The notes below the pieces were generated by a model. The model searched no databases and had not been told where the DNA came from. It was given only the letters and a program-made list of their open reading frames with translations. DNA of 64,000 nt from Zasmidium citrigriseum (taxonomy: Eukaryota > Ascomycota > Dothideomycetes > Mycosphaerellales > Mycosphaerellaceae). This document shows positions 3,471-54,181 of the stretch, piece after piece (positions within the stretch are counted from its first letter, which is position 1; the number at the start of each line of letters is the position of its first letter). Position numbers and translations under genes: made by a program. The stretch is from the NCBI GenBank assembly GCA_002786025.1, contig NHNW01000081.1, positions 1-64,000 of the forward strand, read 5' to 3'.

Positions 3471-3699
3471 CGGGAGTAGGGGCTTAGCGATAACGCGTAC
3501 CCTCTATTAATAACGCTTATATAGTATTATATCGGTATATATAATATACTATCGCTCTTAACTTCGGATTAAAACCCTCTATATATAGGCTATCTCTATA
3601 CGATATACTAGGCGTATAGAAAGTATTTCTATCGCCTAGAGGGCGTATAGAGACACCTATAAACCTATAGCGCTACTAACGACCTAGAACGTATAATCT

Positions 3700-17548: not shown

Positions 17549-18368
17549 ATGGCCACCAACATCACCGACACGACCAGCGACGCGACCACGACTAGCGGCG
17601 CCACCAGCGACGTTGCCACCGACTCGACGAGCAAGCCAAATATCTTCGACGACGAGGACGTCCCCCCATTCTTCCGCCTCAGCGCCGAGTTGCGCAACAA
17701 CATCTACGAGCTGGCGCTGCCTCCATCCAAAGTCAACATGAAGCGCGACTACCGCCTTCCTGGACTCCTCACGGCTTGCAAGCAAATCCACAACGAGACC
17801 GCCAAGCTCTACTACAACACAACGGCCTTCTACTTCAAGTCCCTCGAACTGTGCCTCGAATGGCTCGGCCGTCTTCCGGACAGATACAAGCAAGCACTCT
17901 CGACCGTCAGACTCGAGACAGCCCAGAGAAACTACGCAGACATCTGCCTCGGAGCATGCTGCGGTCTGCAACTCCGCAGCGTCGACATGCCAGAGGCATC
18001 ACGGAGCCTCCAGCGGATGCACGTGTCTTGGATTCGCAAATGCTTCAGAGACCTCGTCGAAGACCTCGATGCGGAGGTCGTCAAGGTCGACCAAGTGCAG
18101 ACGTGCACTGGCAATGAGTCAAAGGAGGAGCGGGCGAAGTGGCTTGACGATCCGAGTTGGGATTTCAAGAGGGTGTGGGTCAAAGTCAAGCCGGGCAAGG
18201 ATGATGGAGAGTGGGAGGACTATGGAGATGAATTCAAGGTCAGTCTGGACATGGCAGTTCGAGTGTGGTTCGAGTGTACTAACGTAGACGCAGGAGGTGT
18301 TCGAGATGATGGAGACGGAGGGTATTTCGGTCGAGGAGGCGTTTGATGAATGGTGGGATCAAGTGTAG
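17549..18368 (+). CDS. F-box-like / 2EXR-type protein
   Basis: Function unknown. Two exons (17549-18238 and 18294-18368) with a 55-nt intron (branch ctaac) give 254 residues. The start is the ATG in the context cacaATGgcc. A low-complexity Thr/Ser-rich N-terminus is followed by the block FFRLSAELRNNIYELAL, typical of the large family of F-box-like proteins of Dothideomycetes, and then LLTACKQIHNETAKLYY. Such proteins are thought to recruit targets to SCF ligases, but the family is poorly studied. The short second exon adds a tail with many Glu residues. Confidence 0.75.
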
Positions 18369-18602
18369 AAATGGCGTGCACCCTTTCTGCTACCCTCCAA
18401 GAAGTCGAGGAAATTCCAGGAGAAGTCCAGGAGAAGCCATCCGGCGGTCTCGCGACAGGAGTAGCAGGGCCACAGGAGTAGGAGGGCCATATCTTCTTCG
18501 ATTCGAAGCTCTTGTATACACACAGCAAAGATCGAGTGCCCTGACTCCATAAACACAGGACGATCCTGATGCTGGTCGGCAATTGACATGGGATGTGAAC
18601 TT

Positions 18603-20375: not shown

Positions 20376-20799
20376 CTTCACAACTTGTCACGGTATCTTT
20401 GCCAGTGAAAGTTGTACTCGCTGTAAGGCGATACTTTCGAGCGAGAGCACGGTGCCATTTCCAGGCGGCTGAACACTCATCTGTATGTCGACATGAACGA
20501 GGTGGATGAACATGTGCTGTTCTGTGACCAGAATCGTCAAGAGGTGAGGTCGAACTGGCAGGAGCATGCTTATGTAAGTCCCGTTCGCTCCTGCCTGAGG
20601 AGAAACCACTCACTCTGCGTGCGAGAATCAAAGAGAAGAGGAATAGTCATTCTGGCACAAAAGAAAATGTAATGCTTTCCATGCAATCGCTCTATCTCAC
20701 AGCGTCTATAGCCCATTTCCGAGCTCCTGTGCTTTTGATGATACATCTACCAGCCGGCTCACTGTAGCCAGCACCAAACCTCCTCTCTCTGTAATCAAC
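20376..20799. other. Intergenic region
   Basis: Between HET and MET3 genes on the same strand; it holds the HET gene promoter and the MET3 3' region. No other feature seen. Confidence 0.5.
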
Positions 20800-22593
<1,794 letters not shown>

Positions 22594-24083
22594 GGTGTGT
22601 AGTCTGGCTCGTCTCGTATTCTTTCAGGCGGTGCTGGAGTGGGAAATGAGAGAAATCAAGTCAACTCGCGTCCCTGACAAAGCTCCGTCAGTTCTGAACT
22701 TTTAGACTTTTCCTGCAGCGAGCACGCAAGCACGTGTGACGCCCCACTGGCACTGCTGCAACAATGTCAATCCGGAATGTTGCGTGACGTACCGGCGCTG
22801 CGTCGAAGTTTTCTTGGGTCGGACAAGACGTGACAAGAAAAGCAGGAGACGGCGGTTCAGTCTGCTAAAGAAGAACAACCACACGCCCGCCACACGCTCA
22901 GGGGAAGCAAGAGGCCTGAACAGCTTTCATCAGCCTCGTCTGTGATCCGCGCAACCCTCTGCTTGGCAGGGATTGATCATCATCGTTCCTCTCCAAACAC
23001 ACCCCTCCCAGCCGACCACCACTCCCGGCTGCCGACGTCCGATGGAGCACCAAGTCGGTTTCCATCTCGTCCAACAAAACGCCCAGCGAACCTCTCCAAC
23101 AATCTTCTTGTCATGCTCTTGTTCAGCACCAGGACCCTTCAAATTCGAGAAGAATCCTCCCTCAACCGTTCCAACCGTCCTCCACCGCAACGGGTATATC
23201 GCGGCAAGAAGGCGTTGTACGTTATCTCCATTGCGTACGCATCTGGGGAATGCCAATTTCCACAACACCCATCCGTTTCAGAGTGACAGTCCCCGTGCGA
23301 GCGTGCCACAATCAGTTCAATTCCATGTCGGTAGGGTCGGCCGAAGGAGGAAGGTAGACGTGGGATGTCGCGAAATCCATCAAGAAGTACAACGAACGAA
23401 CCGAACTTCTACTTGACAAGAAGCCATGCAAGTCTTATACACCCCAACCACTAACACTTCACACCGACGAAACCTTTCCCACCATCTCTACAATCCTAAA
23501 AATCATTGGTTGAATCCGCCTACTTCCCATGTTCATTACAGTCTCAGCGCACAGTCTCGGGCGATCGCAATCGGCTGGTCGCTTTGCTCGGACGCATCCT
23601 GCCACCAGCCATGTATACGTATCGAAGAGCATCCTCGACCTCACCTCTTGATCTCTTGTCCGATTTTCTTCGTTGCACGAAAGTATTGTTTGTTTGTCTT
23701 TGAGATGTCACGAAACACCCGAGCCGTCGAGCTGCGATGGCGTGATTGTGGACACCACGTGATTTGGCCACCGCGAGACCGAGTACACCGCCGCCGCGAA
23801 GCTGGTGAAGGCGAAGGTGAAGGTTGGAGGGAATATGGGGATAAGTATATCAAGTTCGAGACTCTCATTTGAGTACATCTCTATGCTATTGCAGACGAAT
23901 GCTATGCTTTTTTCGAAGCTGGAAAAACAGCCACCAGCGGGTAGAAAACCTCGCTCCAAGACCAACGCCATGCTAACCTCAAAGGTCTATCCCCCATCAT
24001 CATCAGTCATCCTTGATCAAAACCCCCATCGCAATACATCACCGCCGAAGTCGAATCGAAATACGGAAGAAGATCCCCGATTA
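22594..24083. other. Long intergenic region between MET3 and MET16
   Basis: About 1.5 kb holding the MET3 promoter and the MET16 3' region. Several short open frames exist, but their composition is not coding-like and no exon chain with good splice signals was found. A tgacgt core, the half-site of many bZIP factors, lies near 22785-22790; whether it serves the sulfur regulator is open. Confidence 0.5.
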
Positions 24084-24977
24084 CTATGCCGAGGACTCAA
24101 CATTCAACCCCGCTTGAATCGCCTCACTCAACTCGCGTTGCCGCTTCTCCTCTTGCTCCTGCAAGAACTGCGCGTACCGACTCCGCTTGTTGTGGATACC
24201 GCACTCGGTCTTCTGGCGACCCTTCCATCGACCGGCACGCTCGTCCTCACTATCCGTCACCGGCTGCGTCGAGTGCCAGTCACCTACAGACCGGTACCCT
24301 TGGTCGAGCAGGTCGTTGGTGGGGACGTCATTCTCCTTGATATACGCCTGCACGTCCTTGAAAGACCAGTTGGCGAGCGGGTTGACTTTGATAAGACCGG
24401 CGTCATCGATCTCGACAATGTCCAGCGAGCCGCGAGCACCGCCCTGCGTCCTACGCCGGCCGGTCAGGACGGCTTGCACGCCGAGATCCCGGTATGCACG
24501 CTGTGCTGGCTCGACCTTGGCGACGAAGTCGTACATCTCCTCGTTCGACTCCCACAGTCTCTCGCCGTGCTTCGCCTCGAACTCCTCCGTCGTCTCGCAT
24601 CCCTCAGGCTTGTATGTGTGGATCTTGAGGTGGGGATATCTGTCCTTGACCCGTCGCACGAGATCAAGAGTCTGTGGGAAGTGGTACAAAGTGTCGAGGA
24701 AGATCATCTCGATGTCCGACTTGAGCGGGAAGTCGAGTTTGGAGATCATGTCCATGACTGCGAGGCCCGTGAGGCCGAAGGCGGAGGTCTGAAAGAGGTT
24801 GGGCAGCGAGATGATGCACCATTTGAGGACGTCTTGCGGCTCGAGCTTGGCGAGTTGCGAGTTGATGTGCTTGAGGTGGGGGCGTGAGAAGTAGACTTCG
24901 GACAGAGAGGCGGTGCTGCTGCCGCTGGCGTAGCCAGACTCGCGGTCCGTGGAGTTGGACCGCTGGCGGTAGGCCAT
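24084..24977 (-). CDS. MET16: Phosphoadenylyl-sulfate (PAPS) reductase
   Basis: Reduces PAPS to sulfite with thioredoxin. Single exon, 297 residues, ATG at 24977. Motifs of the family: TSAFGLTGLA (about 65-74, PP-loop position), LDTLYHFPQT (94-103), LTGRRRTQGG (171-180) and the catalytic KTECGIH with Cys259. The CC...CC pairs that bind the iron-sulfur cluster of APS reductases are absent, so PAPS is the expected substrate. The protein is cytosolic. It lies 1.5 kb upstream of MET3 and about 10 kb from MET1, all on the minus strand. Confidence 0.96.
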   Translation of the reverse strand: MAYRQRSNSTDRESGYASGSSTASLSEVYFSRPHLKHINSQLAKLEPQDVLKWCIISLPNLFQTSAFGLTGLAVMDMISKLDFPLKSDIEMIFLDTLYHFPQTLDLVRRVKDRYPHLKIHTYKPEGCETTEEFEAKHGERLWESNEEMYDFVAKVEPAQRAYRDLGVQAVLTGRRRTQGGARGSLDIVEIDDAGLIKVNPLANWSFKDVQAYIKENDVPTNDLLDQGYRSVGDWHSTQPVTDSEDERAGRWKGRQKTECGIHNKRSRYAQFLQEQEEKRQRELSEAIQAGLNVESSA

Positions 24978-26212
24978 TGTGGTGGTGGTGTGAAGTGATG
25001 GAAGACGGTGAGTGTTGGTCTCCGTGTTTCCTTTTGCACGAGTGGATCTCGCGGAGTGGGTGGGTTCTCCTTCTGAAAACGTCGAAAAGCCTCAATGGGT
25101 ATGGTATCTCAGGAACTCGTCGAGGATGTAAGAGCAAGAGCAGGGAGGTGTATCACACAGGCGAAGTCGATGATGTCGTTGTTGTTGTCGAGGAGGAGAA
25201 TAAGAGAGTGTCATACTTACGGTGCCTACTTCACGGGCTGCCGTCGCCGCCGCCCTGGCTGAGCACGCCATTCTTCGTCTTCGCCGCTGCTCACAAATCC
25301 AGAAGAATTGCGTGCTCGCTAGGGGACCCATTGTTCTTGACACGCCAGCCAATCACGACCCGCGACCGTCGACTTGTGGAATTTTGCGCTCTTGCACCGG
25401 CAATTGTGTTTCCAATGATTGCAGAAGTGAGCATTTGCAATCGCGATTTGAAGATGATGCGAAATCAGAGAGAAGTGTCGAGTTGTGTTGGAAATGGTTT
25501 GGTACTTGGGTACTTCGACGGTCCGGCTTGGGCGATTTGTATGTGCCTGAGGCATCGAACTTGAAGGACAAAGAAACATCAGGTAAGCCGTGTTTCATTT
25601 CCGAGGCCTCTCTGCTTTCCTTTCATGAGTTGTGCAGTGAATGCCTCGAACGGCGTTTACAATGTTATGCTCATCTTCTCCGCGGGTTTGATGAGTTGCG
25701 ATTGTGCGATCTGGTTTTGAGATCCACAGTTCTCGGATCGGTGAGCCGGGGCGATGATGACGATGGCAGCACGGCTTCGGACTTCGAACTTCAGGTCTCG
25801 ACCTCTTTGATGGACTTGATCACGCTTCATCGTGTGCAGAGCGCTCCTATGTGACTTGAACAGTCACAACAATCCTCTGCGCTGCTTTGAAGTGCAGGGT
25901 ATTGATACTCTTTCAATGGCATTGGCGCTTTCTACATCTTCTGATACCATCTTCCACGCATGTCCACCTCCCGATTGGCCTTCATGGCATTCAATCTGTT
26001 GCGAACCAGCAGGCGCAACGCCATGAATCTGCAACGGGGGTGCATCTGCTGTGCTACCACAGTCTTGCTGACATACGTGTCAAGCGAGCCTGAGAGCCGT
26101 AGCGGCTGAAAAGAAGATAGCATCCCCCCTGATCGCAATACTCACATCGTCCTACATTCAGTCGGACACTCGCTTTACTGAATCCTTGCTGGAACTACGC
26201 TACGATGTAGCT
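24978..26212. other. Intergenic region
   Basis: About 1.2 kb between divergent MET16 and HET genes. Open frames here begin at non-ATG codons or run through low-quality sequence; none is supported. It must contain the MET16 and HET promoters. Confidence 0.5.
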
Positions 26213-27774
26213 ATGGGTTCATATCGGTTGCCATACTCACCTCGCTATTCCAGGAGCGCTCCTGCCCCATATGAGACTGTGGACTATCAGGCGCTAGGCA
26301 GCGACGAGTTTCGTCTCCTTGGTCTAGAAGGCTTCACTCCCCAAGGCGCTCTCGAATCTCGTCTGCGGACAGTCTCTCGCGAAGCATCTGGGGTTTATAC
26401 CGGCATCTCATACACCTGGAGTGACAAAGAGAGAATATGGTACGGCAAATACGACACATCCCCCAAGCCAATGTGGATTGATGGCAAGCTCGTCCGAGTC
26501 TCCGATAAAGTGGTCAATATCCTTTCCCTCGCTGTATATGTAAGAGTCTGAGGCTGGTTAACCATCATGGCTGCTGACCAAGTTAGCATGGAAGACGAGT
26601 CGTCTGGATCGATGGTCTCTGTATTAACCAGTCGGACACTGCTGAGAAGAGTCACCAGGTTGCGCAAATGGGCCGCATTTACAAGGGAGCGGCAGAAGTA
26701 CTCTGCTTCCTGAACAACCCTTCCACGAAAACAGACGATATTCTAGACAACATCAAGCGTTCTTCCGGCTTACCATCGTTGCGATCCTCTGTAGATTACG
26801 TGGTCGGGTTCCAACACTTGGCCCAGGACAGTTACTTCAGCCGCGCATGGACGCTTCCAGAGATGATTCTGGCCAAGACGGCCATCTTCTGCTGCGGGAC
26901 GACGATAATTCCTTTATCTGAGCTTGTGGATTTTGAAAAGAGAGTCGGTCATGTGGCTACCGGCGATCTTCTTGATAGTCTTCGAGGCTTTCGTTATTTC
27001 TTGCCCACGATCCTCAAGCAGTATCTGCGTAGCGGAAGAGATGCATTCGCAAGCTGGGAGAGTAGGCTGATCGAACCAGATACAGACTTCCTCGATCTTT
27101 TGCGGCAATGTCGTGGATCTTTTGCCTGTACGGATCCGCGAGACCTCATATACTCCCGGCTAGCCTTGTGCCCCGAATCCTACAAGTTCGTGCCGTACGC
27201 AGACTACACGATTAGTGTGGAAGAGTTATATAAGCAATTCGCCGGGAATTGGATACTGCACACTGAATCTCTGGAGATCATCACGGTGGCGACAAATTCC
27301 CAAATGCAATTACCAAGCTGGGTTCCGGACTGGACATCCGCAAATCACGGTTGGGAAGCCGACAATATTGTGTGGGAGATAAGCAATCCTCTACGCCGTA
27401 TCTTCTGGGAGCCGAGTGATCTGCCACGAATATCTCCCGGCCGCAACGAGCTCACGGTACAAGGGAAGATTCTGGTTCGCCTTTCCGGACGAGGCGCTGG
27501 CCATGCATTGCTGTCTGCCGTAACAAAACATACAGCTTATCGTACAACGTACGCTAAGTCTGAAGGTCCGTCTTCTGGCGATCTCGTATGTGCATTGAAA
27601 GGATGCCACTGTCTGGTCTTTTTACGACCCGTTGATGATCACCACATCGTTGTTGGCAGAAATTCCTTTTCTCATGACTATTTTGAAAGCATGTCTAACG
27701 GTCTATCGAGAGAAGTGTGTAAGACGCTAGAGAAAGTCGAGACTATTCCAGAGACTGTGTTCAAGATTAGGTAG
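26213..27774 (+). CDS. HET-domain protein
   Basis: Two exons (26213-26539 and 26587-27774) with a 47-nt intron give 504 residues. The HET blocks are YTGISYTWSD at the end of exon 1 and VVWIDGLCINQSDTAEKSHQ at the start of exon 2, then a MGRIYKGAAEVLCFL block. The downstream block CTDPRDLIYSRLALCPESYK is the usual second landmark. Only weakly similar to the other HET protein at 18.6 kb outside these blocks. The partner and trigger are unknown. Confidence 0.88.
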
Positions 27775-40304: not shown

Positions 40305-40720
40305 ATGAATGCGACAATACCTGGAACCAGGGCGAACACTGCCGATCCAATCTACTCGATTATCTCGAGTTTGAACACTGTCATGAGGCTCAGCATGCAG
40401 TTGTCAGGACAGTTGGGTGTAGAGATGCCTTAGGTGTGATTTGACTTTCACGCTTGTTGCAAGCGCCATGTGCAGCGAATCCTTCCCGCACAGACGACTG
40501 GTCGCCCTCTCTGCGAAGGGTACGCCACATTTTTAGAGGCGGGCAGCCATCGCGCAACTGTCACTTCCTCTTTTCTCATCGGATGTCTGCTGAGAGATAT
40601 CAAGCAATGTCTGGCATCGTCAAGGATCTACTGTGCCCCGACATTCGCAGAGTCTGACGACCACTTCAGTCTTTGCCGCTCTCATGATCTCAAAGACGAG
40701 TTGGATGCATTCCGATCACA
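40305..40720. other. Intergenic region
   Basis: Upstream region of the zinc-finger gene. No other feature seen. Confidence 0.4.
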
Positions 40721-43700
40721 ATGGCGCAAATGCCTCAATGGTCTCAGCTACCTCCATGGTCTGATGTCGGCCAATCTTCATTCGATGGAAAATGCGGAGA
40801 GTTAATCAAAGGACCCAAGCCGGATAATTCACAACACGACACGATCGAAATCTGCTACGAGGCTTATCTGCTGGGAAAAGACTCATTGAGCCGTGGGACA
40901 TTGACTGTCAAGCGCGTTGGCAAGCAAAAATGCCCTTTTCTGGACAACACGGTCTACCATTCGGATCAGAGTTCTTTCAACCTGGGTGGAAAGAGCGCTT
41001 CGGTCCATTTTGCCGACTTAACCAGGGCACAGGGCGAGGCGGCAAACAACCTCTTGAACGAACGTCGAGCCCACGAGAGCCACAGCAATGCCGAGTGGGT
41101 GCTCATATCCATACGAAAGAACATTTGCGGAAGCCGGATACTGCGACTGTTGAGAGCTCATGACGTTGTCGTGATCATCAAGCGGCAGGCAAGAGTCCCA
41201 TATTTCTCCGCTTGGAACGTCCCTCGGAAGACAAATCATGTCACGGAATTTGACATCGCGTTGAAAGTCCTATCTTCGATGAAACATTCAGTCGAGTTTT
41301 TTGAAGTCATCAAAGACTTTCTCGAGGCGTACCCCGAACCATCGATAGACTCGCGCACGCCGGCTAGCTTGAGCTCTACGAAGGACAAGCCGCGAATGCC
41401 TTTCCAGCATGAGGACGAGCAAGCACAACTATATCGCCTAGCCGGAAGGCTCAGTTCGCACCCTGGAGCAGTACGTGCCCTTCGTCAGGCTGTTTACTCC
41501 ATGTATGAGACAGACGCTCGGTTCTACTGGATGTCACGTCAATGTGGGACGAGCATGCTTCCTTTGAAGAAGATTCTGGTCAATCGGCGCCCAGAACTCA
41601 TGCGATATCTTCTGAATCGGGACCGAGCTACCACGAAACCCCAACGCAACATCTATTTTGAGCAACCAACATTGGACGATACAGCGGGGAATCAGTCGCA
41701 ACTTCAGAATGCTTGGAGACACTGCAAGTACGAAAAAGTACTGCGCCGCGATTTCCTTTGGTCTCACGATCTCCCAGCAGGAGAAATGTCCGGAAGGCCT
41801 TCGAGAATGAGCAGTCCACGATTTACTTCAGTCCAAGGTCATCTTGCCGGCGGACAGCAACCTGTGGTCGAGAATCTGAATACATTGATTCCTGTTCAGG
41901 CCCATAGCAGCGTCCCAGATTACATGGAGGTATGGAGTGCCCACGGCTGTAAAGACGCTGACGTCTTCCCTGGCAATGTGTCTCGTCTGAAACTGGCACT
42001 GCTACTTGCCGCATTATACATTCGCGTGCATGAGACGCAGTGGCTACAGAGACCATTGGGGACTACCGATAGTACTGATCAGTGCGACTCCGACCATGGG
42101 ACAGATGGACCGCTCCGGGCACCTCGAACCTCATTGGAGCTAACGTCTGGGCATTGGTCCCGAAATGTCGTTACTCTCGCCAGTCCATGTCCGCGCCAAC
42201 AAATTCGCTGTTGCGGCAACACCGTTGCAGTAAATTCCCAACAGAATCTCAGCTCAAGATCAGACAACATCACTGAAACGCATGTCGAGCGTATTCGCGT
42301 AGATTTGCAGGGACAAATGGATCCGAATCCTGACGAAAAGGAACCACGTTCTTCACTCAAACCAGAGATACGTGGCCATGTGACAACCACGCCAAATGCC
42401 GAACCAATTATTGACATCGATCACGAAATACTGCCAAATGGGCAGCCTTATACCGAATGCGCACGCATGAGCAATTGCGAAAGTAATACTGCGACAAACG
42501 TGATCGAACAAAGCTCCCAGGAAGACGATAGCAAGTCAACGCATATCATGTCTAAAGATTTCAATGCCTGCGGCCCCTCAGACGAGCATCCCATGAACTA
42601 CTTGGAGACCTTCCGCGATCTTCAAACAAGAGTCGACCGACTTTCGACTTTAACAAGGCCAGACACGCCACCCTCATCCGAAGAAAGTTTCACTGAAGAG
42701 GCCACAAGCCTTTCCAGCTTTGATAATCGAAGTCGAACTTCGCAAGCAACGCAAAGCGTAAACAACCATTCACGGCCTTCTGAAGGGCTCGCTTCCCAAC
42801 AGTCGCTGGCGTCAAGCTCTTTTAGAGCTAAAGCTGCGAGGGCGACTCACGGTCATCATCCTGATGCCGAGGGAAGCGAGGAGGAGGAAGAGTTGGGTCC
42901 GCAACGCAAGAAACCTCGTAGCTCAGACTCTGGAGACTTACGTTCCAGGCGATACCCTTGCCCGTATTCCATTGGAGATGGTGTGAAGTACAGCTCGCAC
43001 ACAACATGCTACCCGCATATTTCACCATTGCTGTATGTATGGCCCCAAAAGACCCGTTGATAGGGACAGACACTAAACTCTGTCACAGTCGTCACCTCGA
43101 ATCGCACGAATTCTACATGTGCACCAAATGCCTCTCAACTTTCAGCTCTAAGGAGCAGAAGGCTAGCCACGATGCTATGAAGGCGTGCATCAAGACCTGT
43201 CTCCGCCGCGCCTGCAAGAGGCACACAGCACTGGACTCCCTTGACTCTGGCGAACATCAATGTATCCTGAGCTCTGACGATAAATGGGCAGCAATCTTTC
43301 GTCGAGCCTTTCCGCAGCTGCCGATCCCTGATCCATGGTCCTCCACTGTGCAGCCGTGGCTGCTTCAAACAACTCATGAGATGCCTCATCCGGCCGTGGA
43401 CCCGTTGACTACATTGCCGGCCATTGGATCTCAGGTCCTGGATCCAGCTCCAGAAAACTCGATCGACCAATACTTCGTGACATCTCCTGATGTTGGCAAG
43501 GTGTGGGAACAATCTTTCGAGCCTCACCGGACAATGCCTGGAACATTCTCTCGACAAAGAGTTGACTTCGGAAGCTGCATCGACGAGGAACTGTTCCGAC
43601 AAACTGGATGCGAGCCACAGGTTGTCGCTTGTGAGTCGCTACAATCCGTATCCCGAACAGACGTTCAGGAGCTTCGGCAAAAGCTTGCAATCATTGAGCA

Positions 43701-44031
43701 ACGGGTTGAACAGCCAAGTCGCTCGGAGCAGCAGTCTAGTGCAATGCTCCGACTTCTGTGGAAACGCCTTCTCGAGATTGGAGACTCCTCTGTGCAGGAA
43801 GGTGGTCTTCTTCGCCAGGTGGCGAGTATGCTGACCCCTGACATCCTCGACGATGGACTGCCTGGCTGCGATGTACTCAACACAAATCAGCAGACGGACA
43901 TGACTGGAAATGTCGACTGGTCCATTGCTGGCCTCGCTCCACAGCAACGTGCGGCTGGTGGCAAGGGGAAAAAGCGAGCGATTCCTGGAGCAGCAGACTC
44001 CGCGTATCACTCTGGTAAGCAGATGAGCTGA
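40721..44031 (+). CDS. Large C2H2-type zinc-finger protein, possible regulator
   Basis: Function unknown. Exons 40721-43032 and 43089-44031 join across a 56-nt intron; about 1,084 residues. The zinc finger spans the intron: RRYPCPYSIGDGVKY, a second Cys in SSHTTCYPH, RHLESHEFYMC, CTKCLSTFSSKEQKASH. This is the fungal C2H2 array found in many large orphan proteins of Dothideomycetes. The N-terminal 650 residues have no recognised domain, and the segment before the finger is acidic and Ser-rich. A Gln/Glu-rich helix follows near TDVQELRQKLAIIEQRVEQ. It ends only 113 bp from the first UstYa gene (convergent), so a regulatory link to the cluster is possible but unproven. Confidence 0.75.
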
Positions 44032-44144: not shown

Positions 44145-45223
44145 TCAAGGCACGTGCGGATAAACATACTCCGTCGGCTGTGGCTGGACCGGATTGTGGT
44201 GGCCAAAGATCACATTCTTCACTGGATGTTCCATCTCTTCGATCTCTCGCTCTTTCGTCCATTGCACCAGGGCATCGAAGTCTTTACAGGTCTTTTTCGG
44301 CAATTGCAAATCTGGGATCATTCGGGGTCGATCTTGGATCCATTGCTGTGTGATGATGGATGTTCCCGCGTTGCACATGAGTGCGTCTCGAATGACTTCG
44401 ATGCAATGGTCTGCGACACCAATCAGCCTCCGTGCGGAGAAGTGCGATTCAACAATAATCAACCATTCAATCTTACCAAGCTTGAGTAGCAATGTCTCAT
44501 TGCTGTTCTTCTCAAAGATATGGAAGTCATCGTGCTGGCGATAGTAGTCCCGATGGGTATACACCCGCAACCAGTTGAGACAACTCAGCTGAACCCCATA
44601 TTCAGTCAAAGCCAAAGCTCCTGGTCCATAACGATCTTCGTACTGCGGAGGAAGACGAACGACTTTGGATGGATCCTTTCCTGCGGCTCGCACTTCGTCG
44701 TCCGTCACGAACAACAAGTTTTCTGGAAGCAGTCAGCCCCTGGACTCATCCATCTATGAATTTTAGTAGCTTGCCTCGAGCAATTTCATGCCAAGCTACG
44801 TCGATTTCATGGCTCGGTGGTCTTCGCCATTGACTGTGATGTCTCGGCGTGACATTGACTTCTCGCGTTCTGTACCGTATTGCTTCCCTCATCGGAGCTA
44901 TCCGGCAAGTCAGTCTTCAGATTGCACTGCGCTCTGCAACGTCGGACGAACTCACTTTCGCCATTGAGGAACCTGGCACAACGATCAGGCAATTGATTGT
45001 CTCGCAGCGCATACGCGATCACCAGAGCTCCGAGCAGAAGAGCGATCAGGAATGCCTGAACAAGTGCGATTGTCCGAAGAGAGATCCCGCTGGCATGGCC
45101 GCAAAGACCATTGTGCTCGGTGGTTGAAGCCTTTTCTTCCTCGGCTCCAAGAAGTCTTTGCTCGATCTCAGGAACTGAGCTGCTGGGACTGTGTCCGCGA
45201 AAGTCGTGCGGCTCATCAATCAT
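44145..45223 (-). CDS. UstYa-family protein with degenerate HxxHC motifs
   Basis: Member of the UstYa/DUF3328 family, which oxidatively cyclises RiPP core peptides. Four exons: 44956-45223, 44775-44897, 44477-44722, 44410-44145; about 300 residues. An N-terminal cytosolic part is followed by one membrane helix (TIALVQAFLIALLLGALVIA), then PMREAIRYRTREV, PPSHEIDVAWHEI and VRLPPQYEDRYG. The second intron is a GC-AG intron (44723-44774). The first motif reads VQLSC instead of HxxHC and the second KLDHC, so three of four histidines are missing. It may be non-catalytic or a partner subunit. Divergent from the next UstYa gene. Confidence 0.88.
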
Positions 45224-45610
45224 GGTTGATACGCCTGAAAACTCATCGAAAAGTCGCGGATGAAGAGAGGAGAGCAACGATCTCGAATGGCGAGCATGGC
45301 AAGTTCCGTTGGTGCTGACAAGAGGCCCGCCTTGACGACATGGTTGGTGATACGACAGAGCTGAAAAGCCCTTTGCAGCATCTCGCAGAATCCTTCGGCG
45401 CGAGTTCTCGACCACGCATTTTGGCACTCTTATCATCCATTTTCTGAGCATGTAGTGCTTGTGCTGGCGGCCTTGTGCATGCTACTGCATTAGTTTGGCT
45501 CCCACGGAACGCCCTGCTTACAATGGTACGTCGATACGTCAGCCTGCCTGCGGGCTCCGACTTCATCTACGCAGACAGTCTGACTGGCGCAGCCATCCAG
45601 ACGCGCTTCA
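45224..45610. promoter_or_regulatory. Divergent promoter between two UstYa genes
   Basis: 387 bp shared by two divergently transcribed UstYa genes. It contains ttccgt at 45304-45309 and its complement acggaa at 45504-45509, and a CGG-N3-CCG word (cgggctccg) at about 45548-45556 that could bind a Zn2Cys6 factor. These are leads by eye only. Confidence 0.45.
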
Positions 45611-46618
45611 ATGGCGTCAGAAATGAGTGAGAGTGAGGATCCTGCCTTTGAGTTGGAGAACGACAAGAATCTCCTCGGCGACTGGTCTATTTCGCCTGCG
45701 GCACTCAAAAGACAGTTGCTGCGGCGAGACAGACTCGTCAAAGCTCAGTGGGCAGTCATTGCTATCTTGATGAGCATCATTGTCGCTGGGACGATTCTGC
45801 CGACGAAACCGCAACGCTGTTCAGACTGCGTGCAGCACTTCTTCGCGCTATGTCAGTCATCACAATATTTTGGAATTTGACAAGTGGATCGGAACTGACA
45901 CATAACAGCGCCAGCCTTGAGATACGTGCTCGAAGAGAACTATCATGACGACACAATCAATGGAAGCACTCACTATCGTTCTCGCTGGCAAGGACAGCCA
46001 AACGACGATCTTGACGCAGCCTGGCAAAGCATTGTCAACGGTGAGGCTCTCACGACATCTACAAAGGAAGAGACTCTTCTGATGAAGATGCTTAGAGGGA
46101 CTCATGCGGATCACTTTCGAAGAAGCGAAGACATTGGGAAAGCCCCTGGATGACCGAGTTGCGATTCCACCCGACTTGACGTCTAAATATGGCGCGGGCA
46201 TCGTCGTGTCTTCAGACATGGCACACGAGCTCCATTGCTTGAACATGATCAGAATGTATACATACGGAGACTACTATCGCAAGAAGGACCCAGTCCCCAT
46301 GCTCTTCCAGCAAAGCGAGGCAAAGATACTGCGAGCGCATATCGGTCAGCGTTCGTAATGATACTGATAAATACCGCGGAAGGCTGACCTGTCTCAGACC
46401 ACTGCATTGACGTTCTCCGACAAAACATCATTTGTACCACAGACACCGCCTTGATCACACACAGATGGATCGAGGGCCGACCGTTGATGCAGCCCGACTT
46501 CAACGTCAAGAAGAAGTGCCGCTCATTCGACGCTATGATGGACTGGATCAGCGAACGTGAAATCAAAGAACTCAACGGGCGTCCTGGATATGGTGTGCCG
46601 AGAGGGACTGAGATATAG
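45611..46618 (+). CDS. UstYa-family oxidative cyclase
   Basis: Type II-like membrane protein expected to act in the secretory pathway on the RiPP core. Four exons: 45611-45851, 45909-46040, 46096-46344, 46398-46618; 280 residues. A cytosolic N-terminus, one membrane helix (WAVIAILMSIIVAGTIL), then the blocks SPALRYVLEENY, PNDDLDAAWQSI, VAIPPDLTSKYG and both intact motifs HELHC (in a HELHCLNMIRMY block) and HIDHC (HIDHCIDVLRQ). The last intron interrupts the codon just before DHC, the same place as in the other family members of this cluster. Its stop codon lies 36 bp from the tyrosinase stop (convergent). Confidence 0.92.
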
Positions 46619-46654
46619 CACTCTGAATGCATTGAAGAGATGGTTCTAGAGGCT

Positions 46655-47945
46655 CTACAGTGCACCGAAACCCATACGATCGTACTCGTAGCAAAGCAAG
46701 CCTCTCCTTGTGTCGATCGTCTCCTCGACGGCTGGATCACGGGCCAAGCCATGGAATGTGAGCACATCCGTCAACGACGCACTTGCGTTCGAGACTGAAG
46801 ATGTTGGACCATCATACGCTCGCTGATTCTTTGAAGCCTTTTTCTGCCAAATCCACCACAATCGATCGAGTTGGCCATGATGAAGGTAGAACAGCGGTTC
46901 TGATAAAACTCATTATCTCATATGCTACAATACGGCCTCTTAATGGGAAGACATACCTGCTGGAGCCACGAAGTGGGAAAAGTCACCTCCAATTTGTTGT
47001 GGAACAGTGTTGTGTGGTCCATGCTCTACCAAGAGGAGGAAGTCAAAATACTCATCGTGCTTTAGCATACGTTCGATCAGAGTAGCTCTGTTGTTTTTCC
47101 AAACTGGAGGCATGCTGGAGAAGTTCCGAGCCAGACAATGAGGCTTCTCGTCCATATCCCAGTATCGGGAGGTGAAGTTTGCGAATGGGCCCTGAGAGAC
47201 GACAATGTCAGCTGGAGCTAGCGATTGTTGATATGGGATGCCGAACGTCATTGATGCAGTATCCAGCACCACTTGATGAAGGCCTGTCTCGATCTCCATT
47301 ACCTCCAAAGCCTGTGGTGGAAGAAAAGACTGGCGAGGAAAAGGGACTCTGCCAGTCCAGCGTCCAATCCCAATATCTGCATTGAACGTCAGCGAGACGC
47401 AAACATCATTTGAATTGATATGACTGACGGCAAAGATCCTTCATATCCACACTCCGATCTCAAGTTGTCTTCGAAGATCTGGATGAAGTAGCGATGCCAC
47501 GAGAAGAATGAGGCTGAGTCATGAGAAATGTACCCGACATGCTGGTGCGTCCAGGGAAAGTCGTCCAGTCTGGAGGAATTTGGCTGAAGACGAGAAGGGG
47601 CTCGATGCAGACATTTGACAGCATCAATGAATGCCAGCTTCTCTGCGTCTGAAAGCGTTCGCCATTCCCGCCGGGTTCGTGGACTTGAACAAGCAGGTTC
47701 TATCGATGAAGACAAACCAAACACTCGGATTGACAGGCCAGCGAGAGAGATTACGAGTAGTACTGCTATCGCAGCGATTGCAAGAGTTGGTGAAGTGCGT
47801 CTGCTCTGGCGTGATTGTCTACCAAATGTCAAATCGAAGCTTCTGAAGCTGCGGGGAACACTTACTTGTCGCAGTTCACACGGAGATCCTTTTCATCGTC
47901 CCTCAATCGCTCATATCTCTGTCCTCGAGAGAACATGTGCAGCAT
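46655..47945 (-). CDS. Tyrosinase (UstQ-like copper monooxygenase)
   Basis: Type-3 copper oxidase; in ustiloxin-type pathways such an enzyme hydroxylates or couples the tyrosine of the core peptide. Five exons: 47866-47945, 47429-47818, 47247-47376, 46957-47191, 46655-46899; 359 residues. A membrane anchor (LAIAAIAVLLVISLAGL) follows the cytosolic N-terminus. Copper-site segments: HQHVGYISHDSASFFSWHR, LPYWDWTLDW (across intron 2), PHCLAR, HGPHNTVPQQIGGDF and, after intron 4, FYLHHGQLDRLWWIWQ. The third intron uses a gttcgg donor. The first exon starts at either of two ATGs (47945 or 47936). Convergent with the preceding UstYa gene and divergent from the next. Confidence 0.93.
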
Positions 47946-48390
47946 CTTTGGACTTTGATTTTCCGAGTCAACCTGGTATGCTCAACGCTGCTCAACAGCT
48001 GGGCACCTTGGCGTCTTGAGCACAAGCTGAAAGCCCCAGAGGATCGCAACTGGATCGTCTTCTGCATCTCGCATCGCTTACAGAGGACACTGCGCTCATT
48101 GATCCAGAAATTGCGTCGCAGGAATTGGGGGCCTGGTTGTGCTTGCCATATGTCGCAGTGCAGTAGCTTCGGAAAGGCTGCATGCGAGCCTCGTGGGCAG
48201 GTACGCCCCCACTTCATGTATTCGAGTGGAGAACTAGCAAATTCCTGTACGACATGAAGAATACAAGCGAAACGTCAGCACGGACTAAAGACTTCCCGGG
48301 AAGAGGGCGGGTGACGACGTGGTCTGGAGCTGGCACACGGAATCTCTGCACGAGGTCGTCTTCGCCAGACCCAGCGGCAGAGGGCCCGTC
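47946..48390. promoter_or_regulatory. Divergent promoter between tyrosinase and UstYa genes
   Basis: 445 bp shared by the tyrosinase gene and the third UstYa gene. An acggaa word occurs at 48337-48342, as in the previous divergent promoter. No separate gene was found here. Confidence 0.45.
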
Positions 48391-49451
48391 ATGATCAAGG
48401 GAAAAGGCTATACACCGCTGGACTATGAGAATTGCCATGAACAGAGACCTGATCAATCCAACACCAGGTCGGGATTCTCACCATGGCTCATTCATGCTGC
48501 GCTGCTTTTGACGTCCTTCGGATTCTTCGTCTCGTCACTGTGGATTCGCAACGATGCCACGGCCGAGGAATGTGTGAAAAAGACTTCAGTATATTGTGAG
48601 TCGTTTGGTCATCCACTTCAAATATTTGCGACTGAATGAAGCTTCTCATCAGCACCCGCCTTGGAAGCCGTTCGAACCCATGTAACGAGATTGAACGGAT
48701 CTTTCAATTACGAGTCCGTATTCAAAGGAGAGCCTTCACCCGAACTTGACGCAGCTTGGTCCAGACTTACAGCGGGAGGTATGAACCAGTACTCAAGCCT
48801 TGGTACAACACAAGCGCTAACATCAAGATGTAGACATTCTTCCAGGTCCACTCATATCCGTATCAGAAGATGACTTGATCGAGGTCGATCAAGCCGACGA
48901 CATCGATACCGTTGTACGACTTCCGCCACACTATGGCGAAGGATATGTTGCATCTCTTGAAGTCTTCCATCAATTGCATTGTTTAGTAAGTGCGTCGCAT
49001 AGCCGTATGGATTTGATGCTGAGTCGAGCAGAACATGCTGCGGCAGATATCATATCCTGAATACTATCAGAGAAACTCTGATCCTGAGAAAGTCAATCGT
49101 ATGCATATAGGTATGGCAATCTTTCGCCATGGTATTGAAAGGTGACAACGCTGACGAAGTGACTAGATCACTGTAAGGCTGACATTCGCCACTCTGGACG
49201 GGATAGGTTCACTCACAGTCTGAACAGGCATTGACATGTTGAGGCAACATCTCATGTGCCGAGGAGACACTGGTATTGTCACCGGACGGTGGGTGACGGG
49301 ATATAGTCATCTATATCCATACTTCAGCACCGTCCACATATGTAGAGACCTCGATGCGATTTACGAGTGGGCGGATCAAAGGAAAGTGACTGTGTCTCAG
49401 GAAGAGCTCAAGGCGTTTCGAGGCTCTGTAAGCCTTGAGAACATACCTTGA
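48391..49451 (+). CDS. UstYa-family oxidative cyclase with 6-nt microexon
   Basis: Six exons: 48391-48595, 48653-48778, 48834-48985, 49032-49110, 49167-49172 and 49228-49451; 263 residues. A cytosolic N-terminus, one membrane helix (WLIHAALLLTSFGFFVSSLW), then SPALEAVRTHV, PSPELDAAWSRL, VVRLPPHYGEGY, HQLHC (split from NMLRQ by intron 3) and HIDHC followed by IDMLRQHLMC. The fifth exon has only six bases (atcact) and supplies D, H and the first base of C of the second motif. Skipping it would keep phase but give HIGID and lose the motif. Both flanking introns have good signals (gtatgg...ctgac...tag; gtaagg...cag). Confidence 0.88.
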
Positions 49452-49659
49452 GCAACTCCATACGGAGTGTATAGATACTCCTCCCTGGGAGAGTTGGATG
49501 TCGACATGACATTAGACGAACAGCAAGCTCAGCAAGTATTGTATTCTTGTTACCAGTAGCGACCGTCCGAAGCACTTCTCATTCCCATCTCTCCCGACGT
49601 CACAATTCGTCCTGCTCCTTCCTTCAAGTCACACTAATCCAAGCAATCGCTCATCCCAT
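49452..49659. other. Convergent intergenic region
   Basis: 208 bp between the stop codons of the third UstYa gene and the precursor gene. No gene or clear hairpin seen. Confidence 0.4.
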
Positions 49660-49867
49660 TTAAACCTCAGCCTCGTCGAAGTCATCGGCGTAGTACCTGG
49701 AACGATGAATATCAGCCGATCGAGAACTCATGTTGAAAGACGCACATGGTGTTCGCCGCTGGTGCTGCCTCTGCACGCTTCTCAAGATCGCCGACGTCCT
49801 GATTGACCGGAGCAGCTAGGGTGAAGCCCAAGATTGCGGCGAAGGCGAGGAAGGCTTTGAACTGCAT
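49660..49867 (-). CDS. Candidate RiPP precursor peptide (secreted, Kex2 site)
   Basis: Two exons (49746-49867 and 49660-49696) with a 49-nt intron (gtgcgt...ctgat...ccag) encode 52 residues. A signal peptide (about 1-19: MQFKAFLAFAAILGFTLAA) is followed by a short acidic propeptide ending in Lys30-Arg31, a Kex2 cleavage site. The released segment (32-52) begins with an Ala/Pro-rich stretch and, through the second exon, ends with a Tyr-Tyr pair (42-43) followed by an acidic run. Without splicing the frame would end differently and contain no Tyr. Position between two UstYa genes and near a tyrosinase fits a dikaritin-like precursor, here with one core instead of repeated cores. It could alternatively be an unrelated small secreted peptide. 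Confidence 0.75.
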
Positions 49868-50416
49868 GGTGGCGGATGGTGAAAAGTCTGAGATCTGTGC
49901 TATGATTTCGTCGACGAACGTGAGGTATCGAGTGCGGATGCAATCGTAACGACTTCTGGCTCGTGGCTTATAGCCGACACTCACCGCTAGTGAGCTTGAA
50001 GACCCCATTTCATGCCCTAGTTGCGATCGTTCTGCGCTTGCATCAGAGGCGTTGCTCACTGCGAGCCTGAAAATCCTCTTGCTCCACGACTTTTGGTCGA
50101 TCGACATCCACGATAATCTGACATGGCCTTCTCGCATTTGAGATTCCCTATCAAGCTGAATTGCGAGTTTTGGTTGGATCCTGCAGCTTTCAGCTCAGGC
50201 CGGCCGCACAATCACGACAATTCCTTCCGATAAATCCACCACCTCAGCTACACCCTCGATGATAGGGCGGCGGTGAAGGACAACATGGAATCGTGAGGTC
50301 ATGTGTTTCCCAACCCTACAGGGGCTAGACGCAATCCTCCACGCTAGAGTAAGAACCAAATCACATGCCAGGACAAGCATGATCTCACAGACTCCGTCCG
50401 AAACACCTCTCCCACT
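49868..50416. promoter_or_regulatory. Divergent promoter of precursor and fourth UstYa gene
   Basis: 549 bp shared by the candidate precursor gene and the UstYa gene on the plus strand. A TATA-like word (ctataag on the minus strand, 49968-49974) lies about 100 bp upstream of the precursor ATG, which fits a highly expressed small gene. Confidence 0.45.
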
Positions 50417-51401
50417 ATGCCACTGAACATCTGTAAGTGATGGTGTGGCTCAACTCTAATGGCAACGATCCTCTTGAAGCAGTCTCCAACATCGATACCT
50501 TGCCGTCGCAATCAAGAAGAAACATCATACCATGGATTTTAACCCTGTGCAATGCCGGACTCGCGCTGCTCACTATCTACTTTAGCTTGACTGATGACGG
50601 TGGCTGTTCAAAAGGGCCAGTGGACGAAAGGTATCGCAACGCAAAGTTGAACTCTGCATTGAAGGCAACATCTACATACTGTCAGTATTGGACTTGTCCG
50701 AATGAGATCTCACAACTCATACCTATCGTCCAGCTCCGATTTTCGACGAAGTAGACCTGTCTCTGGGGGTTCGCAAGCTTGATGGAACGTTCAAGAACAA
50801 GTCTTCCATCTTCCGCCAAGATCCCTCCCCCGAAGTTGACAAGGCTTGGGACTTCTTCTCAGGGGCCATATTCACAACTACTTCGTATACGCTGGCTGAG
50901 AACGGGAAGCGTCCCGGAGAGGCTGTCAAAGCCCCGGCATCGTGGAATCGCGGGGACGATTCGTACATCATACAACTTGATGTCTTCCATGAAATTCATT
51001 GTCTCAACTGGCTACGGAAGGACCTGAACTGGGAATACTATTACGGAGATAAGAAGCCTACACAATGGTGGCTGGACCATCGAGCTCATTGCATGTAAGA
51101 TAGAGGCCTCGACCTTGGTGCCTTGACCACTTGCTGACATTTTTGCTTGATTTCCAGTCACGTTCTCTTGCAAACACTCATGTGCCACGCCGACCTCGAC
51201 GTCGTGCCATACAACTGGGTCAGCAAGTCCGAGGATCACGAGGCTGTACCTGATCCCGATTTCAATGTCTTGAAGAAGTGCAGGAACTTCGACGCGCTAC
51301 TGGAGTGGGCAGAGAAGAACGAAGTAAAGAATGCCCAAGAGAAGCGGAAGCAGCTGAGAGCTCCGAAGGATGCTGTCATTCATGATTGGCCGTATGCATA
51401 G
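50417..51401 (+). CDS. UstYa-family oxidative cyclase
   Basis: Four exons: a 16-nt first exon 50417-50432 with a consensus gtaagt donor, then 50483-50680, 50734-51094 and 51158-51401; 272 residues. If the first intron is not used, an ATG at 50440 opens the same frame. One membrane helix (IIPWILTLCNAGLALLTIYF), then SPIFDEVDLSLG, PSPEVDKAWDFF, and intact motifs HEIHC (HEIHCLNWLRKD) and HRAHC (HRAHCIHVLLQTLMC). Its last intron lies within the Ile codon just after the second motif's Cys, not before DHC as in the other three UstYa genes, so it is the most divergent of the intact members. Confidence 0.9.
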
Positions 51402-51761
51402 AGACCAACAACGATGACATTCGGACAATCTTCATGAGCCTCTCTCTCGATGCTGTGGTTCGCCTCTCTTGAATCAAAGAACCAGGTTGTAGAAGAGACG
51501 CAGAGTTCAGCCAATCCAGGGCAGTGGTAAATCAACTCTCAATTACAAATTCGACGAATCTGGTAATATGCGAGGAAGTGCCAAGTTTGGCAAGGCTGCG
51601 AGGGTGTCGATAACGCCGACTCGGAGACGCTCTGAATCCATCTGGCGTTGAAGATGAGCATTTAAGTCTCTCTGATCTTCCCTCTACTCTCTTCCAGCTC
51701 AACTCTAGCAGCAGTCGAGATCAACACCAAGACAACCTCAACTTCCATCAACAACCCAACC
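51402..51761. other. Intergenic region
   Basis: Upstream region of the small anchored protein gene. No other feature seen. Confidence 0.4.
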
Positions 51762-52202
51762 ATGAAGCCCAACACCATCCTCACCATCCTCCTCACCGCA
51801 GCTCTGGCTTCCACAATCCACGCCGCCGGCTGCCCTTACGCAGCTCAAGCCGGCCACTGTTGCAACGGCTCCATCTATCGCAGCAACGAATCTGGTGACT
51901 CGAGCGATCCCAATAACTGGATATGCTGCCAGGGTGGCAGCCTCGGAGTAACAAACTCTCAGGGCAGTTGTCCTTCTGGAAGTCCGATCTCCTTGGCGGA
52001 TGCGCCCAGCGTCAATGGCAATGACTCTGGTACCTCTTCTGCTGGTACTGCTACGCTCTCGACCACGATGAGTGCTACTGGGCCTTCGACTTCGGGGGCA
52101 ACGGTTGAGGCGTCGACTGGAGGTGCAGAAGATATTAGCTTGAGGGTTATTCCAGTCGTTGTGGGAGGCGTCATTGCTGGCGGATTAGGCATGTTAGTTT
52201 AG
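51762..52202 (+). CDS. Small Cys-rich GPI-anchored surface protein
   Basis: Function unknown. Single exon, 146 residues: signal peptide (NTILTILLTAALASTIHAAG), a Cys-rich head (GCPYAAQAGHCCNGSIY, WICCQGG and SCPSG), a Ser/Thr-rich stalk, and a hydrophobic C-terminus (VIPVVVGGVIAGGLGMLV) behind a small-residue site, as in GPI-anchored proteins. It sits between the last UstYa gene and the Zn2Cys6 gene. Whether it belongs to the cluster is not known. Confidence 0.82.
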   Translation: MKPNTILTILLTAALASTIHAAGCPYAAQAGHCCNGSIYRSNESGDSSDPNNWICCQGGSLGVTNSQGSCPSGSPISLADAPSVNGNDSGTSSAGTATLSTTMSATGPSTSGATVEASTGGAEDISLRVIPVVVGGVIAGGLGMLV

Positions 52203-52380
52203 ACCATGCCAAGATGAGCGGCAAATGGTCGTACATACCGTACTGTTGAGGGGGTGATCAATCGATTACAAATCCGAGGGAGTCTTGAACTGCTGCTATG
52301 TCAAATATAAAGTTGTAATGCCTGAGCACTCGGCAGCACAGTCAATCTCAGATTCCGTTTTGTAGACATTTCAAGCTTAC

Positions 52381-54181
52381 TCATTGAATTGTTGCAGCAT
52401 CAGGGGCTGGCGATGTCTCAGGCCGTGCCCGATTCCCAGCAAACGGTCCACCAACGAACATATCGCAGATCACAGTCAGCCTGTCAAGGTCCGCTGACTT
52501 ATACCGCCACATACTTCCAATCTCGTCCAGTCGAGCAAAGATCCAATAGATGTTCTCGAATGCCTCAGCAGACCTTGCTGCTTCCCGCTTGGCAAGACGA
52601 AGCCAAGTGCCGACTGCTATTTGAATCGGAATAATCATCTTCAGAGCGGTGAGCGGTCTTGATGGGGACGGCGACACGGCGTAGTGTAAACACATCATGA
52701 TCGATTGGGCGGCTTCAATCTCCGCTTGTTCGATGCAGACGATGTCGGGGTTTGTGTAGTGGCCATGAGACGAGAGCTTTCCCAGCAGGCCGCAGATGAT
52801 CAATCGGTAGAGATTGTAGCGGACCGCAATCAGAAAGATTGGGTACGAGTCGATTTCGAAGGCTGTTCCGAAGGGTGGTATTGTAACATCGCTCTGGCTC
52901 TGGACTGGGGTGGTGTACAAACTGAGGTATTCTTGTACGTGTCTGTCAGCGTCTGAGCCAAAGATCGCCAGAAGTCTCTCCGTCGCAAGTTCAATATGTG
53001 TGGCATCTCCTTCTTGCGTTGCTTGTCGAACGAGAAAGACCAGGCGTGGGAGTTGGACGAGCAGATGCCCAACCATGTCCAAGGCTTCGACCGGAGTGTT
53101 GAAAGAGGTGGTTCTGCCAGGCTGAGAACCGAATGTGTTCTCGAAGATTGAGCAGTCTCGGCCGTACATGATAGACTCCACAACCTGGCATTGGAAGGTT
53201 AGTCACAACGCGACGTTCCCTGGGGCCACAACTTACCTCGTCCATGCAGAAAGAGTTCGCAATCTCGCTCAACAATGTATCAGATTCGTATCTCGCCCGG
53301 TGGAGCTTGAGCAAGTAACGAAGAGCAAGCATATGCGGGACGTAGTCAAATGAGTCCAGCTGCAGAAAGTGCTGCACCATGTCAGTAGTCTCCAATCCAC
53401 TGATCTCATATAGAACTCACTTCAGCAGCATAGTGCAGCAAAATCGCAAGTATCAGATTCCTGGAGTTGTCCTCCGTTCTGCAGTTCTCCACGGTGGCTC
53501 TTAAAGACGTCAAAGCGCGTGCACCTGATTTATGTGCCCGCAGCAGCGCTCTGTTGTCGCTTCGATAGAAAGCTGACATAGTGTCCAGAGCGTAGTGTGA
53601 GGCCAGCTCAAGAGCTTTACTCTCAGGGGCATATAACAAGGCCAGCTTGAGATAGTCGCCAAGTGGATTCATCCCGAGAGCCTCGTACCCGAAGACGGTG
53701 GACCATGTCGCCGATGCCTTGCTCTGTGGGCACAGGGTCGCAGTACTTGGCGTTGATTTTGTCGAGGGGTGGGCCTTTCGGTCGCGTTTGAGCCGGTGTA
53801 TCCTGGAAACTCCAAGCGTCAGGAAGGTTCCTTCGCCACTGGCAGCTTGGCGTGCATGCTTTACGCCTAGATGGTCGACTACCTCACAAGGCTCGATGCC
53901 TGAATTGAGATCCTGCTCTGCTTTTGGTCGCTCAGATGGAATGTGTCTCGCACATCCAACACGGAAAGCAAGGACCTGCTCGATCACCGGGATATGGACT
54001 GAATCCTTCCCTGGCTTGTAGACGCAAGGCCTACTCTTCTTACGGCAGGCACCGCACGAAGGCTTGCGTTCATCGCACTGTCGATGTAACGTCAGCATAG
54101 TGGGACTGACCAGCCAAGTGCGGTAGCTCTGACCTTGACCTTCCTGTTCCTGCACATCTCGCACTTGCCCAATCGAGTCAT
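52381..54181 (-). CDS. Zn2Cys6 transcription factor, candidate cluster regulator
   Basis: Four exons: 54134-54181, 53421-54077, 53237-53371, 52381-53184; 547 residues. The binuclear zinc cluster begins at residue 7 and is split by the first intron after the sixteenth codon: CEMCRNRKVK then CDERKPSCGACRKKSRPC, with the canonical spacing C-x2-C-x6-C-x6-C-x2-C-x6-C. The rest resembles the fungal-specific regulator domain, with a block LLHYAAEHFLQLD across the second intron. The frames open upstream of 54181 and downstream of each donor are intronic. It is the only classical regulator next to the RiPP genes and may bind CGG-type sites in their divergent promoters. Confidence 0.9.

Follow-up and report, generated by a model that had tools for sequence, protein, structure and literature searches.

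A compact UstYa/tyrosinase gene set in Zasmidium citrigriseum with a candidate single-core precursor peptide and a UstYa protein short of copper ligands

A 64,000-nucleotide stretch of fungal DNA from Zasmidium citrigriseum (hereafter the window; contig C129 of a 44.4-Mb, 148-contig genome) carries four genes of the UstYa (DUF3328) family and a tyrosinase gene close to a gene for a small secreted peptide, and thereby raises the question of whether these genes form a pathway for a ribosomally synthesized and post-translationally modified peptide (RiPP), which peptide such a pathway would modify, and whether all four UstYa proteins could be oxidases. With gene models spliced by hand, positions 44145–54181 hold these genes together with a 146-amino-acid anchored protein and a Zn2Cys6 regulator; an earlier note made from the letters of this DNA had placed the same eight genes here, and both the spliced models and their Pfam matches bear this out. 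We consider it fairly probable that the locus makes a RiPP through UstYa and tyrosinase enzymes from a precursor with a single core, and the sequence makes the encoded 52-amino-acid peptide its likely true substrate. A RiPP pathway of this kind was also proposed in the earlier note and is still the best reading, whereas its description of the pathway as complete goes further than the sequence supports.

The set itself is real, compact and probably conserved. The 43 UstYa exon matches given by genome searches group into approximately 32 genes. Of these, 28 lie beyond the window; if placed randomly, they would number about 0.006 per 10 kb, against four in 10 kb here. Elsewhere in the genome, tyrosinase and UstYa matches never come within 30 kb of each other, and the nearest pair, on contig C112, is approximately 30.6 kb apart (both from exon-wise searches, which give lower bounds); comparison of the four UstYa proteins with the other UstYa loci of the genome indicates no single sister cluster. 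Within the set, divergent pairs are formed by UstYa-A and UstYa-B (387 bp apart), the tyrosinase and UstYa-D (454 bp), and the peptide gene and UstYa-F (572 bp), with the peptide gene sitting between UstYa-D and UstYa-F. Outside the peptide gene, 20 introns of 46–66 nt were modelled.

The candidate precursor gene (49660–49867, minus strand), read as a plain open reading frame (ORF), gives AANTMCVFQHEFSIG, ending NTMCVFQHEFSIG; this end, as first reported, probably does not stand, as a probable 49-nt intron (49697–49745; donor GTGCGT, branch-like CTGAT, acceptor CAG) between exon 1 (49746–49867) and exon 2 (49660–49696) alters the end of the core. The predicted spliced product is MQFKAFLAFAAILGFTLAAPVNQDVGDLEKRAEAAPAANTMYYADDFDEAEV, 52 amino acids long and ending NTMYYADDFDEAEV. 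As had been recognised earlier, it has the features of a small secreted peptide with a Kex2 site: a hydrophobic N terminus (signal peptide), one Kex2 site (LEKR) and one 21-residue core, AEAAPAANTMYYADDFDEAEV, with no repeats; it has no Pfam match at E ≤ 1. The core contains ...NTM^YYADDFDEAEV, in which the splice join (^) falls after the AT of the ATG, so that splicing would bring a Tyr-Tyr pair into the core and remove the ORF tail MCVFQHEFSIG. Scored by a scheme derived from the remaining 20 cluster introns, the precursor intron reaches 19.25 (15.9–23.4 for the others) and is the best within 300 nt from the start codon. The tail MCVFQHEFSIG was considered as a core and rejected, because it is covered by an intron that matches the others in quality.

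Repeat-type precursors are present at other UstYa loci of the same genome. We scanned for frames with repeated four-residue words at the other UstYa loci and in window positions 43–55 kb, and then across the entire 64 kb; 21 of the 23 UstYa loci outside the window were covered (those on C121 and C63 were left out), mostly with 1.5 kb on each side, and the counts are thus lower bounds. Tandem-repeat genes were found at no fewer than 8 of the 21 loci (C110 at ~38 kb and ~177 kb, C57, C61 at ~1447 kb, C65, C119, and C76 at ~420 kb and ~477 kb), but none in the whole 64-kb window; the scan thus recovers repeat precursors at other loci and none here. Dibasic sites lie between at least some units at six of the eight loci (hardly any on C119 and at C76 477 kb), and a signal-peptide start was seen at five. 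At ~177.5 kb, C110 carries a repeat precursor with numerous SPDAYTIP units, which share their YxIP pattern with phomopsin; a UstYa gene lies next to it, and C110 has no tyrosinase match. Further repeat units near UstYa genes on C57, C110, C76, C65 and C119 include DDVYHAKDGGIIKK, VPPIYRPLVNVALPPSDEKR and DGSTEFDPDAFLKR.

Such loci suggest a rival explanation, in which the oxidases form a real pathway whose substrate is made elsewhere (a repeat-type precursor such as the SPDAYTIP protein of C110, or a non-ribosomal peptide as in cyclochlorotine) and the 52-amino-acid peptide is a bystander. In its favour, the C110 precursor combines the YxIP motif with a contig free of tyrosinase matches, and UstYa enzymes act on a non-ribosomal peptide too (PMC12435403). 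However, each repeat precursor adjoins its own UstYa gene, the window peptide lies between two UstYa genes and has a signal, a Kex2 site and the Tyr-Tyr pair, and the ORFs examined around the cluster, a subset of those in the window, include no recognisable non-ribosomal peptide synthetase; we therefore regard a substrate made elsewhere as unlikely.

One of the repeat loci resembles the window peptide. On C61 (~1446.3–1446.9 kb, minus strand), near a UstYa gene with the motifs HQIHC and HVGHC, a secreted precursor has five units of the form (AP)GNM-FYVP[AP]GA[ED]G...KR, with introns at three of the five M-F joins (judged by eye; one has a weak donor and acceptor). It shares with the window peptide the intron-split M-[FY]Y join, EAE near the unit end and a UstYa neighbour, and differs in its five KR-separated units and in that no tyrosinase match lies within 400 kb on C61. 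We take this likeness as a second support for the intron and, as regards homology, as a lead only. At ~247.9 kb on C120 (minus strand), a short ORF for a secreted product neighbours a UstYa gene; with its predicted intron it has neither a Kex2 site nor repeats, and it is a possible further non-repeat precursor.

The tyrosinase (46655–47936, minus strand; 356 amino acids, five exons; Pfam E = 6.6e-38) has an N-terminal hydrophobic stretch at residues 36–54. Tyrosinases have two copper sites with three histidines each, and six histidines are invariant across the eight aligned tyrosinases. Among solved structures it is related to catechol oxidases (4j3p, E = 4.8e-40). A database search gave 446 matches; among the best 120, the top one is P0001 of Zasmidium cellare (71% identity over 87%), all others are at most 49% identical, and some were named ustQ by their depositors. 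In DUF3328 enzymes, a pair of copper ions is held by the motif HxxHC(x)nHxxHC (PMC12435403). This motif, together with an N-terminal hydrophobic anchor, is found in three of the four UstYa proteins: UstYa-B (45611–46618, plus strand; 280 amino acids, four exons; HELHC and HIDHC; Pfam UstYa E = 4.4e-46), UstYa-D (48391–49451, plus strand; 263 amino acids, six exons; HQLHC and HIDHC; E = 8.3e-57) and UstYa-F (50440–51401, plus strand; 281 amino acids, three exons; HEIHC and HRAHC; E = 7.9e-49). By motif, these three would be of the copper-dependent DUF3328 enzyme type; comparison of UstYa-D with solved structures returned chance-level matches only (E = 0.17 and 0.46).

The fourth protein, UstYa-A (44145–45223, minus strand; 300 amino acids; exons 44956–45223, 44775–44897, 44477–44722 and 44145–44410, with one GC–AG intron), belongs to the same family (Pfam UstYa, PF11807, E = 4.9e-40; 138.2 bits against a cut-off of 25; profile positions 10–220 of 220), yet its sequence does not fit the copper-binding pattern: motif 1 reads VQLSC and motif 2 KLDHC, with one of four histidines kept. 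Of 3714 candidates in a database search, three proteins reached E ≤ 0.001, two of them from Zasmidium cellare; the best, P0121 of strain ATCC 36951, is 70% identical over 95%, and the model aligns full length with the independently annotated Zasmidium cellare proteins P0121 and P0122. Motif 1 is V[QE]LSC in all three orthologues and motif 2 is KLDHC in both Zasmidium proteins, while in the third an insert resembling a retained intron occupies this position and ends LGHC. UstYa-A and its orthologues are 67–70% identical, and the rest of the sequence is well preserved, a C-terminal FGHHNPV.PQPTE tail included; this tail and the shared histidines of the orthologues are not seen in UstYa-B, D and F. 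In the rest of the genome, motif 1 was intact at 4 of 4 places located by a pattern search and motif 2 at 12 of 13, although the pattern is blind to some altered motifs and these counts are not rates. The motif 2 exception is RSDHC, in a UstYa gene at ~162.2 kb on C112.

As the motif loss is common to proteins that are 67–70% identical and otherwise well kept, it points to a function maintained without the known copper site: UstYa-A may be a partner subunit, or its site may have been rebuilt with histidines conserved elsewhere in the protein. The latter would make UstYa-A an active enzyme, and six further histidines (H188, H195, H199, H284, H285 and H299 in P0121 numbering) are indeed invariant in the three orthologues and present in the window protein. 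However, alanine mutants of the conserved motif residues of CctR, the best-studied UstYa enzyme, lost all activity (PMC12435403), and AlphaFold2 on the three orthologues gave no reliable model (mean predicted local distance difference test score of 40.5), and we consider an active UstYa-A unlikely. UstYa-A is instead probably a copper-free UstYa partner, so that the four UstYa genes counted previously more likely encode three oxidases and a partner. Within the cluster, UstYa-A is 32% identical to UstYa-B, 29% to UstYa-D and 23% to UstYa-F, and this closest similarity, together with the shared upstream region, suggests UstYa-B as its possible partner. Our search of the open-licence PubMed Central (PMC) literature for DUF3328 proteins with heterodimers or pseudoenzymes gave no match.

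On the basis of these features, the following pathway can be envisioned. The Zn2Cys6 factor would turn the set on; the 52-residue precursor would enter the secretory pathway, and one Kex2 cut after LEKR would free the core. In the lumen, the membrane-anchored tyrosinase and UstYa-B, D and F would oxidise the core, most likely at its two tyrosines, with hydroxylation, an ether or aryl cross-link and desaturation of a neighbouring residue as candidate modifications suggested by ustiloxin, phomopsin and CctR. In the available text of two papers, the tyrosinase is indispensable for ustiloxin and phomopsin cyclisation, alongside DUF3328 proteins (PMC7329392), and UstYa proteins of phomopsin also desaturate residues (PMC10512285). 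UstYa-A, probably no copper oxidase itself, may pair with an intact UstYa protein, perhaps its divergent neighbour UstYa-B, as a structural or substrate-positioning subunit. Taken as a whole, a repeat-free, one-core and one-cut precursor on which a tyrosinase acts together with UstYa dimers that include a non-catalytic UstYa-A is a tentative proposal. If true, searches that rely on repeats overlook a class of fungal RiPPs, and catalytic and non-catalytic UstYa subunits can work in pairs. The locus offers a concrete single-core candidate, a gene for 52 amino acids whose Tyr-Tyr core arises only after splicing, and in UstYa-A an example from nature of a family member that has been conserved despite losing its copper ligands, which bears on mixed dimers.

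Several observations weigh against a single-core pathway at this locus. The core has neither the YxIx of ustiloxin and phomopsin nor a closing KR; the spliced 52 amino acids have no homologue in the protein database, and a six-frame search of the organism's own genome finds the precursor only as itself, in a single copy. When these 300 nt were put through 500 dinucleotide shuffles, 35 of the shuffled sequences contained an equally good intron, so that the intron score by itself gives moderate support, and the window intron lies one base earlier than those of C61, to which the resemblance is short. CctR is a homodimer (PMC12435403), and a mixed UstYa dimer is without precedent there. A promoter scan that covered gapped CGG-, TCG- and TCC-type pairs found no convincing shared regulator site across five cluster promoters; a TCG-1 base-CGA pair in three of the five (4 observed, 1.95 expected) and one 8-mer common to three promoters are unconvincing. 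The missing database match may only reflect absent annotation, the gene being a two-exon one of 52 amino acids.

Both the shuffles and the missing homologue also suit another explanation, namely that the gene encodes an ordinary small secreted peptide (an effector or signal), or that the intron is wrong and the tail is MCVFQHEFSIG after all; small secreted peptides are common in fungi, and other UstYa loci also yield signal-peptide ORFs without a clear precursor pattern. As the precursor intron equals the enzyme-gene introns in quality, and the Tyr-Tyr pair arises exactly at the splice join, as does M-Phe-Tyr on C61, we consider this quite improbable and continue to favour the 52-amino-acid peptide as a single-core substrate.

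Whether such a locus belongs to a named class depends on the definition. The original five-part definition of dikaritins (Ding et al., as quoted in the available text of PMC12048977) comprises a repeated-core precursor, a tyrosinase, a methyltransferase, multiple DUF3328 proteins and a transporter or peptidase. The window has the tyrosinase and multiple (four) DUF3328 genes, and its precursor has the leader but one core instead of repeats. Neither a methyltransferase nor a transporter or peptidase domain was found by Pfam among the eight genes, in agreement with the earlier note. The locus hence falls outside the original definition, though by analogy it would work like a dikaritin pathway, and its previous assignment to the dikaritin/ustiloxin type is upheld by the UstYa and tyrosinase genes and not by the repeated precursor typical of known pathways. 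A later definition (Montalban-Lopez, quoted in the same text) asks for a DUF3328 protein with two HxxHC motifs that modifies a ribosomal peptide; the motif pair is intact in three of the four UstYa proteins, and the locus would fit if these act on the peptide.

Compared with ustiloxin and phomopsin, the locus is alike in placing UstYa and tyrosinase genes beside a secreted, Kex2-site precursor with a core tyrosine. These systems have many repeats and YxIx, whereas here there is one core with YY, the eight genes encode no domain of a methyltransferase, peptidase or transporter, and one of the four UstYa genes is without most of its copper ligands. Kex2-processed repeat proteins (KEPs), in the available text of the main precursor survey (PMC7329392), are alike in their signal peptide, dibasic site and neighbouring UstYa genes, and are defined there by at least three tandem repeats of at least 8 amino acids between Kex2 sites; the 52-amino-acid peptide lacks such repeats, and as that survey counted only proteins with at least three, a single-core gene would go uncounted. 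A 2025 lichen survey, as far as its available text extends (PMC12048977), met UstYa clusters without an identifiable precursor and raises a single core peptide as one possibility; its clusters are alike in UstYa genes, a tyrosinase in clan R1 and repeat-free genes with a signal and a Kex2 site, although clan R1 also has a methyltransferase and a sulfatase-type gene, the lichen clusters come from a different fungal class, and that text names no single-core sequence. CctR has the double HxxHC motif and N-terminal anchor of UstYa-B, D and F; it differs in its non-ribosomal peptide substrate and homodimeric form, set against one of four histidines in UstYa-A here (PMC12435403). We found no single-core UstYa precursor in the literature covered, that is, open-licence PMC papers.

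The relatives in Zasmidium cellare (Mycosphaerellaceae) bear on how new the locus is. P0001, the tyrosinase match, is from ATCC 36951, as is P0121; the longest contig given for each is 350,224 bp, which places them probably on one scaffold. The earlier description of the cluster as undescribed is right for function only, because the orthologues of two genes have been deposited as Zasmidium cellare hypothetical proteins.

The 146-amino-acid protein (51762–52202, plus strand), small, cysteine-containing and probably secreted, has hydrophobic stretches at both termini, the C-terminal one resembling a glycosylphosphatidylinositol anchor, which fits the label 'anchored'; it has no Pfam family above the cut-off and three further matches in its own genome (best E = 0.006). 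It is conceivable that this protein, whose gene lies within the set and whose sequence has tyrosines in CPY and IYR, is the substrate and that the cluster modifies a surface protein. It has, however, no Kex2-bounded core, and to our knowledge nothing similar has been described for UstYa enzymes, which makes a surface-protein substrate very improbable. The Zn2Cys6 regulator (52381–54181, minus strand; 547 amino acids; exons 54134–54181, 53421–54077, 53237–53371 and 52381–53184) matches Pfam Zn_clus at E = 4.3e-7.

The flanking genes on both sides look unrelated to the cluster. To the left lie a gene with ORFs 40688–43060 and 42922–44031 (no Pfam family), an alcohol-dehydrogenase-like gene and an NmrA-like gene; to the right lie a DUF3176 gene, a cutinase, ribosomal S4e and an ANTH/I-LWEQ protein. 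Pfam was applied outside the cluster to 17 ORF stretches, part of the window ORFs, and the sole methylase among these, a tetrapyrrole methylase, is encoded by a siroheme gene at 12–14 kb. An M20 peptidase at 33 kb was considered as a cluster member and rejected, as it lies 9.7 kb leftward with the alcohol-dehydrogenase-like and NmrA-like genes intervening. Elsewhere in the window, clustered sulfate-assimilation genes occupy 12239–25091 (siroheme synthase/methylase, ATP sulfurylase with an APS-kinase domain, and PAPS reductase), and two genes with HET (heterokaryon incompatibility) domains lie at 18603–20387 and 26587–27774. Positions 1–8000 have a G+C content of 35–38%, against mostly 50–57% elsewhere in the window, and this stretch looks repeat-rich or affected by repeat-induced point mutation (RIP).

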